A stretch of 64,000 nucleotides of DNA from the NCBI GenBank assembly GCA_902806235.1, contig CADCVW010000039.1:1-64000 (forward strand), read 5' to 3'. Position 1 is the stretch's first letter. Each line of letters opens with the position of its first letter. Made by a program: the position numbers and the translations under genes. The stretch comes from an uncultured Sphingomonadaceae bacterium. GTDB lineage: Bacteria > Pseudomonadota > Alphaproteobacteria > Sphingomonadales > Sphingomonadaceae. The notes below the pieces were generated by a model that ran no database searches, had not been told where the DNA came from, and saw nothing but the letters and a program-made list of their open reading frames with translations. Positions 5,883 through 19,586 of this stretch are shown piece after piece.

Positions 5883-6737
5883 ATGAAACAGTCGTTCGAG
5901 CTGGAAGCCTCGGGCTGGGACACCGCCGCGATCATGCGCGGCCTGTACGGCGACGGCATCATCGGTTTACCCGGCGCCTTCGACCGCAACTGGGCGGCGC
6001 GGATGCGCGAGGACATCGATGCGCTGTTCGCCGAAGCCAAAGCGACGCCTGGCGGCGCGCTGCCGCGCGGGCCGGAGCGCTTCTACGTCGAGGTGCACCC
6101 GGAGCGGGTGCGCGGCTTCGTCGACATCGCCACCCATCCGTGGTTCGTCGCGGTTTGCCGCGCGGTGCTCGGTCCCGACTACCGCATCGTCGAGGTCGGC
6201 TTCGACGTGCCCGGCCCCGGCGCGCAAGACCAGCCGTGGCACCGCGACTTCGCCGCGCCGGAGGCGACGACGAAGGGGCGCCGGCTGAACAGCCTCGCCT
6301 TCAATTTCACCGCGGTCGACACCACGGAGGAGATGGGGCCGTTCGAGGTCGCGCCCGGGACGCAGTGGGACGACTTGTCGGCATACCCCAACGGCATGTT
6401 CCCACCGCGCGAGCTGTTTCCGCGCTACCAGGCTCGCGCCCAGCGCAAGCTGCCGCGAATGGGCGACATCTCCGCCCGTTCCGCGCTCACCATCCACCGC
6501 GGCACGGCCAACCGGTCGGCGGTTTCGCGCCCGGTGCTGGTGGTGGGCGTGGACGCGCCGGACGCGACCAACGCGCACCACCACGATCTCCAGGTAACGC
6601 GGGGGTACGCGGCGACGCTGCCGGCGGAAGTGCTGGAACACCTCACCTATCGGCTGGTCGACGAACTCGAGTTCGTAGTGCAGGCGCACACGATCGACGG
6701 ACTACTGCAGGCGGACGGGCCGAGCATGGCGGCGTGA
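5883..6737 (+). CDS. Phytanoyl-CoA dioxygenase (PhyH) family protein
   Basis: A 284-residue protein of the Fe(II)/2-oxoglutarate-dependent PhyH family, which hydroxylates varied small molecules. The metal triad is visible as His120 and Asp122 in QPWHRDF with distal His205 in ALTIHRGTANRS; Arg216 in SRPVLVVG is the likely 2-oxoglutarate anchor. The ATG at 5883 is chosen because GGAAGG lies seven bases upstream; the frame is open to 5841. No signal peptide is present. The gene is monocistronic here, followed by an intergenic repeat and convergent glmS. The substrate is unknown; this family is too diverse to call phytanoyl-CoA itself. Confidence 0.82.
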   Translation: MKQSFELEASGWDTAAIMRGLYGDGIIGLPGAFDRNWAARMREDIDALFAEAKATPGGALPRGPERFYVEVHPERVRGFVDIATHPWFVAVCRAVLGPDYRIVEVGFDVPGPGAQDQPWHRDFAAPEATTKGRRLNSLAFNFTAVDTTEEMGPFEVAPGTQWDDLSAYPNGMFPPRELFPRYQARAQRKLPRMGDISARSALTIHRGTANRSAVSRPVLVVGVDAPDATNAHHHDLQVTRGYAATLPAEVLEHLTYRLVDELEFVVQAHTIDGLLQADGPSMAA

Positions 6738-6754
6738 GGGGCAACTTCGGAAGG

Positions 6755-6905
6755 ACATCTTCCCTCGCCCCTTTCAGGGGAGAGGAGCGAGACTTAGCTT
6801 TCGCTGCGGCGAAGGCTTAGTCGCAGCGGAGAGGGGCTGTGCGGGAAGTCACTAAGGACCGAGCTTTGTCGGCTCGGCCCCTCTACCCCTGAAGGGGAGG
6901 GCTAA
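6755..6905. repeat. Intergenic repeat (CCCTTCAGGGGAGAGG family), copy 1
   Basis: Fills the gap between the convergent PhyH and glmS genes. It is bounded by near-complementary ends (cccctttcaggggagagg and cccctgaaggggaggg) and contains smaller dyads such as CCGAGC/GCTCGG. Its left part, around GAGCGAGACTTAG and CTTAGTCGCAGCGGAGAGG, is clearly homologous, inverted, to the element at 48496-48672. It probably also ends transcription from both sides. Confidence 0.75.
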
Positions 6906-6910
6906 GAAAC

Positions 6911-8740
<1,830 letters not shown>

Positions 8741-11000: not shown

Positions 11001-12269
11001 GTGCCCCGCCCGCTCCTGCTCCTCCTAATGATCGGCGCGGTCGCCGCCGCCCTGCTGCTCGGCGGCACCCTGCCCGCTCTGACCGGCGGCGCGGTCGCGG
11101 GAATCGCGCTGGCGTTGCTCGCGCGAGACGCGGAGCCGGTCCGCCCGCGCCGCACCGGGCCGCGCTCGCCGCGCCGGGCGGAGGAGATTGCTGTCGCGCC
11201 CGAGCTGCTAGAGGCGATGGGCGACCCCGTGCTTCTCGTCCGCGAGCGCAGGGTGGCGCTGGCCAACGCCGCCGCGCGCGCGCTGCTCGGCCCGCACATC
11301 GCCGGCGAGGACATCCGGCTGGCGATCCGCCACCCGGTCGCCGCCGAGGTGCTCGACCGCGCCGGCGCGGCGCCCGCCGACGCCGAGCTCGTCGGCCTCG
11401 GCCAGCACGACCGGCGCTGGCGCATGACGGTGAGCCGGCTCCCCGGCGGGCTGCGGCTCGTGCGGCTGCTTGACGTGTCCGACCGCGCCGCGGCCGAGCG
11501 GATGCGGACGGATTTCGTCGCCAATGCGAGCCACGAGCTGCGCACCCCGCTGGCGACCCTGAGCGGCTTCGTTGAAACGCTAGAGGACCCGGCGGCGGGC
11601 GGGAACCCGGCGACGCGCGCGCGCTTCCTGGCGATCATGGGGGACGAGGCGCGGCGGATGCGGCGGCTGGTCGACGATCTCCTTTCCTTGTCCCGGATTG
11701 AGGCCGACCGCTTCTCCGTGCCGGACACGCCTCTCCCGCTCGCGCCCCTGGTCGCCGAAGCGGTGGCGGACGTTGCCCGGGCGCTGGAAGCGCGGGGCGC
11801 GACGGCGGAGGTGCGGGTAGATCAAGGGGCGGAGGTCGCGGGCGATCGCGGCCAGCTCGTGCAGGCGCTGCGCAACCTGCTCGACAATGCGATCAAATAC
11901 GGCCCGCCCGGCGGCGCGATCGAGGTCACGGGGCGAATCACGGATGGCCACGTCGCGGTCGCGGTGCGCGACCGCGGCGAGGGCATCGCGCCCGAGCACC
12001 TGCCGCGGTTGACCGAACGCTTCTACCGGGTCGACCCGGGCCGCAGCCGCGCGCTCGGCGGCACGGGACTAGGGCTCGCCATCGTCAAGCACGTCGCCGA
12101 ACGGCACCGCGGCCGCCTGCTGATCGAGAGCGCCCCCGGCGAGGGCACGACCGTGACGCTGCAGCTGCCGCGCCCGCTGTCACGAAAGAGTCACGGAAAT
12201 TTCGCAGGAGAGCCCGCGTCCCCCGACGACGGATCGGCCGGGCGACGCTTCGGGGAGTTCACGGAATGA
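11001..12269 (+). CDS. phoR: Phosphate regulon sensor histidine kinase PhoR
   Basis: An inner-membrane sensor kinase of 422 residues. Two N-terminal hydrophobic segments (about 4-22 and 28-41) are followed by a PAS-like region (about 65-160), the H box NASHELRTPLATL with phosphoacceptor His178, the N box RNLLDNAIKYGPP, and G boxes VRDRGEGIAPEHL and GGTGLGLAIVKH. It should phosphorylate PhoB under control of the Pst transporter and PhoU. The GTG at 11001 is chosen because it begins just before the first membrane segment and avoids overlapping glmU; an in-frame ATG at 10911 overlaps the glmU start codon and is less likely. The stop overlaps the pstS start (ATGA), showing coupling. Confidence 0.93.
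   Translation: MPRPLLLLLMIGAVAAALLLGGTLPALTGGAVAGIALALLARDAEPVRPRRTGPRSPRRAEEIAVAPELLEAMGDPVLLVRERRVALANAAARALLGPHIAGEDIRLAIRHPVAAEVLDRAGAAPADAELVGLGQHDRRWRMTVSRLPGGLRLVRLLDVSDRAAAERMRTDFVANASHELRTPLATLSGFVETLEDPAAGGNPATRARFLAIMGDEARRMRRLVDDLLSLSRIEADRFSVPDTPLPLAPLVAEAVADVARALEARGATAEVRVDQGAEVAGDRGQLVQALRNLLDNAIKYGPPGGAIEVTGRITDGHVAVAVRDRGEGIAPEHLPRLTERFYRVDPGRSRALGGTGLGLAIVKHVAERHRGRLLIESAPGEGTTVTLQLPRPLSRKSHGNFAGEPASPDDGSAGRRFGEFTE
12177..12198 (+). promoter_or_regulatory. Pho box upstream of pstS, inside the 3' end of phoR
   Basis: CTGTCAC at 12177 and GAGTCAC at 12188 form a direct repeat with the 11-bp period of PhoB sites, each followed by an A/G-rich tetramer (GAAA, GGAA). The site lies about 68 bases before the pstS start codon, a normal distance for a PhoB-dependent promoter. 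This suggests pstSCAB-phoU can be induced separately from phoR. Confidence 0.65.
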
Positions 12270-17671: not shown

Positions 17672-18370
17672 ATGGCGAACGTTCGACTGCTCTTGGTGGA
17701 GGACGATCCGGCGCTCGCCGAGCTGGTGGCCTGGCATTTCGAGCGCGAGGCGTTCGCGGTGGAGTGCACGGGCGACGGCGAGGAAGCGCTGCTGCTCGCC
17801 GCGGAGAACCCGCCGGACATCGTGCTGCTCGACTGGATGATCGAGGGCACGTCCGGCATCGAAGTGTGCCGCCGCCTGCGCCGCCTTCCCGCCACCGCCA
17901 ACGTGCCGATCATCATGCTCACCGCCAGGGGCGAGGAGGCCGACCGCATCCGCGGGCTGGAGACGGGGGCGGACGACTACGTTACCAAGCCCTTTTCCCC
18001 GCGCGAGCTGGTGGCGCGGGTGGGCGCGGTGCTGCGCCGCGTGCGGCCGGCGCTGGCCGGCGAGGGCCTGAGCTACGCGGACATCGAGATGGACCTCGTC
18101 CAGCACAAGGTGCGGCGCGGCGGGCGGGCGGTGGCCCTCGGCCCTACCGAGTTCCGGCTGCTGCGCCACTTCCTCGAGCACCCGGGCCGCGTCTTCTCGC
18201 GCGAGCGGCTGCTTGACGCGGTGTGGGGCCACGACAGCAGCATCGACGCGCGCACGGTGGACGTTCACATCCGCCGCCTGCGCAAAGCAATCAACGAGGG
18301 TGACGCGCCCGACGTGATCCGCACCGTGCGCTCGGCGGGCTACGCGCTCGACAACGAGGGCAAGGTCTAG
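17672..18370 (+). CDS. phoB: Phosphate regulon response regulator PhoB
   Basis: An OmpR-family transcription factor of 232 residues. The receiver domain has the acidic pocket LLVEDDP, phosphoacceptor Asp54 in IVLLDWMIEG, Thr in MLTARGEE and Lys in YVTKPFSPREL. The C-terminal winged helix contains LGPTEFRLLRHFLEHPGRV, then ERLLDAVWGHDS and the recognition-helix region RTVDVHIRRLRKAI, all PhoB-like. GGAAGG lies upstream of the ATG. It is the last gene of the phoR-pst-phoU-phoB cluster, and the Pho boxes at 12177 and 17631 are its predicted targets. Confidence 0.96.
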   Translation: MANVRLLLVEDDPALAELVAWHFEREAFAVECTGDGEEALLLAAENPPDIVLLDWMIEGTSGIEVCRRLRRLPATANVPIIMLTARGEEADRIRGLETGADDYVTKPFSPRELVARVGAVLRRVRPALAGEGLSYADIEMDLVQHKVRRGGRAVALGPTEFRLLRHFLEHPGRVFSRERLLDAVWGHDSSIDARTVDVHIRRLRKAINEGDAPDVIRTVRSAGYALDNEGKV

Positions 18371-18429
18371 CCGCGGTTGTATCGCTCGGGCCGCGCGCCC
18401 ACTATCGGTCGATCGAGAAGGAGCTCGCC

Positions 18430-18546
18430 GTGAAGAAGTTGATGGTCGGCGCCGCGGCGCTATTGTTCTCCGGTTCCGCCGCCTACGCCGCCGCGCCGGA
18501 AGCCATGCACGCGCTCGCCAAGGCCTGCGGCCTGCCCTGCTGCTGA
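18430..18546 (+). CDS. Predicted 38-residue exported peptide ending CGLPCC
   Basis: A short gene starting with GTG, preceded by the consensus Shine-Dalgarno AAGGAG seven bases upstream (18417-18422), and closed by TGA at 18544. The product begins with a signal-peptide-like segment (MKKLMVGAAALLFSGSAAYA, possible AxA cleavage after about residue 20-22) and leaves a mature tail of some 16-18 residues (about PEAMHALAKACGLPCC) with three cysteines. A strong terminator starts 23 bases after the stop. It follows phoB by 59 bases on the same strand, so it may be co-transcribed with the phosphate regulon. I do not recognise the family. Ribosome binding site, signal and terminator together argue that it is a real gene. 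Confidence 0.65.
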   Translation: MKKLMVGAAALLFSGSAAYAAAPEAMHALAKACGLPCC

Positions 18547-18568
18547 AGCGGCATCGCTGAGCAGATCG

Positions 18569-18602
18569 GGGCGTCTGCGCGCGAGCGCAGGCGCCCTTTT
18601 CC
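18569..18602 (+). terminator. Rho-independent terminator after phoB and the small peptide gene
   Basis: A 12-bp stem (GGGCGTCTGCGC with GCGCAGGCGCCC, one G-T pair) with a GCGA loop, followed directly by TTTTCC. It separates the phosphate cluster from the downstream SDR gene. Confidence 0.9.
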
Positions 18603-18665
18603 TTGCGCGCCGGGGCGCTTGAGTTACGACGCGGGCGCATTCCCATCCGCAGTCGGAGTCACCGC

Positions 18666-19586
18666 ATGACCATTCGTTTCGACAACCGCGTCGCGATCGT
18701 CACCGGCGCAGGCGGCGGCCTCGGCCGCGCCTACGCGCTGGAGCTCGCGCGGCGCGGGGCGAAGCTGGTGGTCAACGACCTCGGCGGCGCGCGCGACGGT
18801 TCGGGCGAGTCGGACGCGGCGGAGCGCGTCGCCGACGAGATTCGCGCGGCGGGCGGCGAGGCGATCGCCAACGGCGCGAGCGTCACCAATTTCGAGCAGG
18901 TCACGGCAATGGTCGAGGAAGCGCGGGCGCGCTTCGGCGGCGTTCACGTCCTGATCAACAACGCGGGTATCCTGCGCGACAAAAGCTTCGCCAACATGAG
19001 CGTGGAGGACTTCCGGCTCGTGGTGGACGTTCACCTTGTCGGCTCGGCCAATTGCACAAAGGCGGTGTGGGCCGGGATGCGCGAGCAGGGCTACGGCCGG
19101 ATCCTGATGACGGCGTCGTCGACCGGCTTGTTCGGCAATTTCGGCCAGGCAAACTACGGCGCGGCGAAGGCGGGGCTGATGGGGCTCACCAAGACGCTGT
19201 ATCTCGAAGGCGCGAAGTACGGCATCCGGGTGAACACGCTCGCCCCCACCGCGGGAACGCGGATGACGGAGGATCTGATGCCGCCGGAGATGTTCCAGGC
19301 ATTTAGCCCGGAAAACGTCGTGCCCGCCGCGCTCTTCCTCGTGTCGGAGGACGCGCCGACCAACGCGATCGTCGGCGCGGGCGCAGGCGTGGTAGCGGCG
19401 TCCTACGTCACGCTGACGCCCGGCGTCGCCTTTCCGCCCGACCGGCGCACGCCGGAAGCGGTGGCCGAGGCGTGGGAGCGAATCGTCGACCGGACGGGCG
19501 AGGCGGTGCCGAAGTCCGGGGCCGAGCAGGGCATGATGGCGGTGGCGCAGCTGCAGAAGCTGATGGCGAACGCCGGAAAAACCTGA
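18666..19586 (+). CDS. SDR family oxidoreductase, peroxisomal multifunctional-enzyme type
   Basis: A 306-residue NAD(P)-dependent dehydrogenase. The cofactor motif is TGAGGGLGRAYA (residues 13-24), the NNAG motif is at 98-101, and the catalytic Ser151/152, Tyr164 and Lys168 are in TASSTGLFGNFGQANYGAAK. The long N-terminal form with NDLGGARDGSG resembles the (3R)-hydroxyacyl-CoA dehydrogenase domain of peroxisomal multifunctional enzymes, so a role in beta-oxidation of branched or hydroxylated acyl-CoAs is plausible but inferred. The ATG at 18666 has GGAG upstream. It lies upstream of malate synthase, separated by a repeat. Confidence 0.85.
   Translation: MTIRFDNRVAIVTGAGGGLGRAYALELARRGAKLVVNDLGGARDGSGESDAAERVADEIRAAGGEAIANGASVTNFEQVTAMVEEARARFGGVHVLINNAGILRDKSFANMSVEDFRLVVDVHLVGSANCTKAVWAGMREQGYGRILMTASSTGLFGNFGQANYGAAKAGLMGLTKTLYLEGAKYGIRVNTLAPTAGTRMTEDLMPPEMFQAFSPENVVPAALFLVSEDAPTNAIVGAGAGVVAASYVTLTPGVAFPPDRRTPEAVAEAWERIVDRTGEAVPKSGAEQGMMAVAQLQKLMANAGKT

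Follow-up and report, generated by a model that had tools for sequence, protein, structure and literature searches.

A conserved family of short cysteine peptides in sphingomonads, probably metal-binding, with one copy behind phoB

Introduction

Methanobactin precursors are very short cysteine-bearing metal peptides that have no Sec signal peptide and need MbnB/MbnC. Another group, the bufferins, consists of small Sec-exported cysteine peptides that are active against copper and includes Buf1 (DUF2282, PF10048) and Buf2, with its signature of six or 12 cysteines (PMC12452194). In Caulobacter, bufferins are under the control of sigma-F (PMC3511200; PMC12452194), the heavy-metal sigma factor whose published promoter motif is GTAACC-N16-CGAA (PMC3511200). 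A different mode of control is exerted by the nascent chains of CutF and CruR, which detect copper and regulate the gene that follows (PMC9973294; PMC9426467).

Here, a 38-codon gene directly behind phoB is described in a window of 64,000 nucleotides (contig CADCVW010000039.1 of an uncultured Sphingomonadaceae bacterium), together with its relatives, which are referred to as CC-peptides and which, as judged by sequence searches, are a new, uncharacterised and previously unnamed family found mainly in Sphingomonadales. No MbnB/MbnC genes were recognised at their loci. CC-peptides resemble the bufferins in being small, Cys-rich and predicted to carry Sec signal peptides, in their setting of metal stress including copper, which for CC-peptides is read from locus context, and in sigma-F/NrsF control and DoxX-type neighbours, as at Caulobacter CC3254-3257 and CC2907-2905 (PMC3511200). 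In contrast to bufferins, their mature part spans only 18 to about 46 residues, with one to several Cys or CC groups. They gave no match to DUF2282 (Buf1) or to any other Pfam model, and against the cysteine signature of Buf2 the window peptide has three Cys and some paralogues have six. Further, neither the window flank nor the listed member loci, part of whose ORFs were profile-scanned, showed a recognisable MNIO (DUF692) or DUF2063 gene. Because the profile test failed and members had no recognised MNIO neighbour, CC-peptides are not filed as bufferins, although by analogy the family may work like them. The same observations bear on the explanation that the peptide is the precursor of a modified, bufferin-like metallophore (RiPP) whose DUF692/MNIO enzyme is encoded elsewhere in the genome. 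The company of sigma-F, NrsF and DoxX-type genes, the Sec signal peptide and the cysteine logic are those of bufferin clusters (PMC12452194; PMC3511200), but the peptides have no such profile match, and in the neighbour lists of the member loci, part of whose ORFs were scanned with the MNIO profile, no MNIO-like ORF was recognised; a modified precursor is considered very improbable.

A short gene behind phoB

The sequence-only reading had described an ORF with an AAGGAG motif, a signal-like N-terminus, a CGLPCC end and a terminator behind it, and all these elements were recovered, together with a GTG start, when the sequence was read again (Table 1). GC content at codon positions 1, 2 and 3 is 0.63, 0.58 and 0.92, which is what a coding frame in a GC-rich genome should show. 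Inspection of the N-terminal part suggests a signal peptide for which cleavage is expected after AYA.

Table 1. Positions of the features discussed (window coordinates unless a locus is named)
Feature	Position	Strand	Remarks
Possible Pho box TGTCACGAAAGAGTCAC	12178-12194	+	1 mismatch; 72 nt before pstS; total of matches across the window at chance level
phoB, phosphate response regulator	17672-18370	+	TIGR02154 match of 335.7 bits, above the cut-off of 296.2; 84% identity to best relatives
Gap between phoB and peptide gene, 59 nt	18371-18429	+	without sigma-F motif, hairpin-plus-T site or CutF-like ORF
Slot matching that of the Pro/Ala-rich proteins of relatives	18371-18665		
Shine-Dalgarno AAGGAG	18418-18423	+	6 nt upstream of GTG; direct reading
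38-aa peptide gene, GLPCC subgroup of CC-peptides	18430-18546	+	GTG start, TGA stop at 18544-18546, 38 codons; translation MKKLMVGAAALLFSGSAAYAAAPEAMHALAKACGLPCC by direct reading
Predicted Sec signal peptide, residues 1-20	18430-18489	+	suggested by K2-K3, hydrophobic core, invariant A18 and A20
Predicted mature 18-mer AAPEAMHALAKACGLPCC	18490-18543	+	three Cys (C-x3-CC); better conserved half of the peptide
Intrinsic-terminator-like hairpin and T-rich tail	18568-18597	+	13 pairs, 10 of them G-C
Short-chain dehydrogenase (PF00106), next gene	18666-19586	+	behind phoB in many relatives, with or without insert
VTT-disulfide-reductase fusion	L164: 3351-5558	+	
VTT-disulfide-reductase fusion	L130: about 6217-8295	-	
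45-aa hydrophobic ORF	L130 (contig 71 of the window genome): 12225 to about 11980	-	between sigma-F motif and msrB
Cys-rich peptide MKSRFAIAVAAIVFGATAAYAATEAMGCCKDCCKDKTEQHQDHKM	L119: 6578-6766	-	exported-looking
Cys-rich peptide MKTKYLLGALALTMSTAAFAAEPAPTPEKECCCCKKDEHGKMACCKDKDAKSGDEHKGHDMGGMDHK	L162: 5147-5350	+	exported-looking

Homologues and extent of the family

When the single 38-aa sequence was searched against 397 genomes of the bacterial family, it matched an ORF of equal length and 74% identity in genome G353, as well as weaker relatives; a first single-sequence search of 59 relatives had returned chance matches only, none of which carried a Cys tail when translated. A DNA scan of GTDB contigs for an exact pattern (MKK start, 75-105 nt, CGLPCC, stop) yielded five copies of exactly 38 codons, with a mature sequence common to all. 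They come from four sphingomonad genomes besides that of the window, namely Sphingomonas MGR_bin57, Sphingomonas MGR_bin317, Allosphingosinicella YX3bin14 (two copies) and SS_bin_87 (Sphingomonadaceae, the same as G353). The six remaining matches belonged to unrelated bacteria (Cohnella, Bacteroidales, Lachnospiraceae and others). The predicted mature consensus of this GLPCC subgroup is AAPEAxHA(L/A)A(K/R)(A/S)CGLPCC.

Profile searches, tblastn of plasmids and the single-sequence and DNA-pattern searches brought the family to 22 loci, about 16 of which hold longer paralogues with several CC groups. The tails of these longer members follow CC-x4/5-CC-x3/5-CC, and their genes lie on chromosomes and on plasmids of Sphingopyxis and Blastomonas; one member (G695) comes from another family within the same class. 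Overall, members measure 38-66 aa and consist of a predicted signal peptide, AAPxxV..A and one to several Cys or Cys-Cys groups, with a CC always near the C-terminus. Among 16 aligned members, M1, A18, A20 and C37-C38 are invariant, A18 and A20 being the -3 and -1 positions of a predicted signal peptidase I site. The window peptide shows these family features, with AxA before the mature part, AAPxx at the mature start and a terminal CC. A GC-rich hairpin followed by a T run stands about 12-28 nt past the stop codon in most other members.

Only matches with a Cys tail were counted. Loose profile matches at E 0.001-0.1 were mostly ordinary signal peptides without such a tail and were left out, and one candidate (L123, from genome G238) was dropped on inspection. 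A match located behind phoB in genome G218 proved to be a different exported protein, its similarity being confined to the signal peptide.

No Pfam or NCBIfam model matches the family peptides above its cut-off; the sub-threshold matches, Phage_coatGP8 and MprA_tail, cover the N-terminal, signal-like part. A profile search of PDB sequences gave weak matches at most, mostly to signal peptides, and no paper on the family was found in the open-access literature. The initial statement that no family was known is thus correct for curated models, while relatives are already present in RefSeq as 'hypothetical protein': WP_155644913.1 (Sphingopyxis FD7 plasmid pSFD01) and WP_171900143.1 (Blastomonas RAC04 plasmid pBSY18_2). 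Both differ from the window peptide by a longer tail (49 aa, three CC groups) and have metal-type regulators or efflux genes on the same locus or plasmid. At the copy on Blastomonas plasmid pBSY18_1, no gene is annotated at the position of the peptide.

Purifying selection on the reading frame

Synonymous change exceeded non-synonymous change in all 15 pairs of 38-aa members (binomial p 2e-3 to 1.5e-7), with pS of 0.57-0.88 and pN of 0.12-0.29, two recent duplicates excepted. For the window copy and L139, pS was 0.81 and pN 0.12 (p 1.5e-7), and where dN/dS could be computed for pairs with the window copy it was 0.13-0.18 (p 3e-4 to 9e-4). The bias was also present in other members: dN/dS was 0.04-0.20 in pairs of longer members, 0.09-0.20 among plasmid-type members (p 7e-6 to 6e-4) and 0.04 between the two copies of genome G359 (p 1e-9). 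The mature half was better conserved than the signal half in nearly all 38-aa pairs; for the window peptide against the other members of this length, pN was 0.04-0.14 in the mature half versus 0.20-0.30 in the signal part. These substitution patterns indicate that the reading frame of CC-peptides is under purifying selection, with dN/dS of about 0.04-0.2, and that the window ORF is a genuine protein-coding gene.

It had been suggested from the sequence that this was a credible gene below the usual length cut-offs, a view to be given up if no conserved homologue with synonymous-biased substitutions existed. The gene passed this test, with 22 homologous loci and synonymous-biased change in every pair compared. 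A chance ORF in the gap between phoB and the short-chain dehydrogenase gene might have been suspected from the short length, the GTG start and a size below the ordinary cut-offs of gene calling. This explanation is refuted by the synonymous-biased substitution among homologues, which occur at the same length in four other genomes with the mature sequence kept, and its probability is practically nil.

Position of the window copy behind phoB

Between phoB and the peptide gene there is no hairpin-plus-T site, and on the plus strand, from phoR onward, the only long-stem site of this kind comes immediately after the peptide gene. Because no terminator separates the two genes and the long-stem hairpin comes only after the second, the simplest explanation is that the peptide gene is transcribed from the phoB unit. 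The window copy is thus probably transcribed by read-through from this unit, ending at the terminator at 18568, and a weak promoter of its own within the 59-nt gap is possible.

This arrangement would also be expected if the peptide gene belonged to the Pho regulon, as the last of a phoR-pstSCAB-phoU-phoB unit, and acted in phosphate starvation or on arsenate taken up by Pst, and weak Pho-box-like sites are present before pstS and phoB. However, Pho-box matches within the window are no more than expected by chance, and co-transcription alone would not make phosphate the function. Further, none of the 21 other member loci lies by phoB, and the peptide is absent behind phoB at all 29 related loci; a synteny search downstream of phoB likewise gave no homologue, so that conservation of position was rejected. 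Since no other member is tied to phoB, a Pho-specific function is quite unlikely. The link to the phosphate cluster that had been proposed therefore does not hold as a family trait, and the suggested co-expression with phoB is plausible in the window genome but not family-wide.

Many relatives keep phoB and the short-chain dehydrogenase gene linked, with an insert that varies. At least eight relatives encode a different small exported Pro/Ala-rich protein (92-156 aa) behind phoB, where the window genome has its CC-peptide. These proteins, located between phoB and the dehydrogenase gene or downstream of phoB (L044, L049, L053, L054, L055/L132, L059, L062 with two, and L064), end near x-C-(S/T/K)-x(4)-(D)-x-C, and for the one at L055 Pfam gave no match and NCBIfam none close to the cut-off.

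Metal-resistance neighbourhoods

Many members sit in copper, mercury or arsenic resistance loci. In an enrichment test chosen after the pattern had been noticed, 17 seeds taken from member loci were searched in 12-kb windows, seed matches on their own locus being ignored. A metal seed was matched in 11 of the 22 member loci versus 2 of 32 random control windows from the same genomes (Fisher p=3.3e-4), the effective number of loci being smaller than 22 because some of them are related (G359 a and b, G292 and G160, the plasmid copies). The type of metal varies among loci. A MerR gene and a Cu-type P-ATPase with YHS and HMBD domains are found at the G353 locus, ArsR and a MIP channel at G320, and a CueR/CadR-like regulator at G145. 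MerT-like, GDCCVxC and CDF genes accompany the members of G269 and Blastomonas pBSY18_1, and Cus/Czc RND genes that of plasmid pBSY18_2. The two G359 loci carry the multicopper oxidase CopA, a CsoR-like regulator and Grx-MauE, and the G292 locus carries CopA, DUF411, CueR-like and CDF genes, part of which recur in G160. No metal seed was found at G304, G275, G695, L139 and L142, or within 6 kb of the window copy. The association is an enriched one and no defining feature of the family.

Control of family members

Within 700 nt upstream of the peptide, five exact sigma-F motifs (as TGTAACC-N16-CGAA) and two with one mismatch were found in the 22 loci, whereas 768 kb of control sequence held a single site with 0-1 mismatches. 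The motif was first noticed in the member sequences and tested afterwards; the published consensus was derived independently of these sequences. Upstream of the window copy there is no sigma-F site.

A second recurring arrangement was found in ten loci (L083, L084, L085, L086, L119, L122, L131, L149, L150 and L164), where the peptide is directly preceded by a Cys-containing ORF of about 100-130 aa with a signal-like N-terminus and a C-terminal PPPR or PPPP. No Pfam model matches the ORFs of this type that were scanned. The likeness to CutF, CruR (DUF2946) and CopL (PMC9973294; PMC9426467) lies in this upstream, signal-like Cys ORF with its Pro-rich end; the counterpart is accordingly the partner ORF, itself without a Pfam match, and not the peptide. 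The PPPR/PPPP ORFs are candidate new CutF/CruR-like metal-sensing upstream ORFs of sphingomonads. When the ends of the partner ORFs were folded with the Shine-Dalgarno sequence of the peptide, pairing was obtained in about half of the loci, which is too inconsistent for CutF-style sequestration to be claimed. The window copy is directly preceded by phoB instead of such an ORF, and no convincing partner match was found elsewhere in the genome. A divergent MerR gene, in G353, represents the third recurring control arrangement.

The genome of the window carries a second, long-tailed member (MKKLLLATALLVPASAAFAAGSDAVATFATSCCSAAAACCRLVLACCG) on contig 71. It belongs to a single directional unit consisting of a sigma-F motif, a 45-aa ORF, msrB, msrA, the peptide, an ECF sigma factor and NrsF (PF06532, E 2e-13), and the motif at the head of this operon is among just three exact matches that the 2.7-Mb assembly contains. 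The 45-aa ORF encodes a hydrophobic product (MAHAAQFRTPFALFCSGARPFAGSLAALAAMLAVAGLTPVMAMAL). A fusion of a VTT (TVP38) domain to a pyridine-nucleotide disulfide oxidoreductase adjoins both this second copy and one G145 member (G145b; 65% identity, 697 aa).

Proposed function

The reading preferred here, which is considered fairly probable, is that CC-peptides are Sec-exported thiol micropeptides buffering soft metals in the envelope, the window copy probably being read from phoB. Synthesis of the peptide would respond to metal or thiol stress, and its export by Sec would be followed by cleavage after AxA. In the envelope, the clustered thiols of the short mature peptide would then bind soft metal ions (Cu(I), Hg(II), As(III) or Cd(II)), in the manner of a miniature bufferin. 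Redox proteins encoded nearby (DoxX/MauE, DsbD-like, Grx-MauE, VTT-disulfide reductase, MsrAB) may maintain these thiols in a usable state. Many members are putatively driven by sigma-F, lie behind a CutF/CruR-like Cys ORF ending in PPPR, or both, and the window copy would be a short-tailed paralogue that lost, or never had, both controls. Three Cys in 18 residues make a modest metal site for one molecule. Across the family, locus context and cysteine pattern suggest that CC-peptides probably bind toxic metals outside the cytoplasm.

The redox neighbours can also be read as the main partners, the exported Cys groups then buffering or reporting periplasmic disulfide or oxidant stress. DsbD_2 lies upstream in L138, DoxX- or MauE-like genes with weak Pfam scores adjoin L139, the second copy of the window genome and G145b, Grx-MauE proteins occur at both G359 loci and at G292, and msrB-msrA immediately precede the second copy of the window genome. 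In contrast, other loci contain metal-specific genes that have no obvious redox function (MerT-like, CDF, Cus/Czc RND, ArsR), and Caulobacter sigma-F responds to Cr and Cd, its genes not being induced by agents that generate ROS (PMC3511200). Since metal-specific transporters and regulators recur and sigma-F of Caulobacter answers metals rather than ROS (PMC3511200), metal buffering is preferred over a purely redox role, which is rather unlikely.

A broader version of metal buffering is put forward tentatively, being somewhat doubtful as a whole: CC-peptides would form a new class of Sec-exported micropeptide metal buffers, 'mini-bufferins' without a modifying enzyme, under sigma-F/NrsF and CutF-like stalling-ORF control, spread among sphingomonads by plasmids, with one short copy moved into the phoB unit in the lineage of the window. 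If Cu(I), Hg(II) or As(III) were bound without enzymatic modification, this would be a simpler answer to the problem that bufferins and methanobactins solve. The analysis delimits a conserved family of proteins that can escape gene callers and that falls outside Pfam and NCBIfam, and it gives the sphingomonad sigma-F heavy-metal response and the CutF-like metal-sensing ORFs a concrete candidate output, a thiol peptide with predicted export. Two other exported-looking Cys-rich peptides, MKSRFAIAVAAIVFGATAAYAATEAMGCCKDCCKDKTEQHQDHKM and MKTKYLLGALALTMSTAAFAAEPAPTPEKECCCCKKDEHGKMACCKDKDAKSGDEHKGHDMGGMDHK, which have no Pfam match, adjoin CC-peptides in loci of the metal type.
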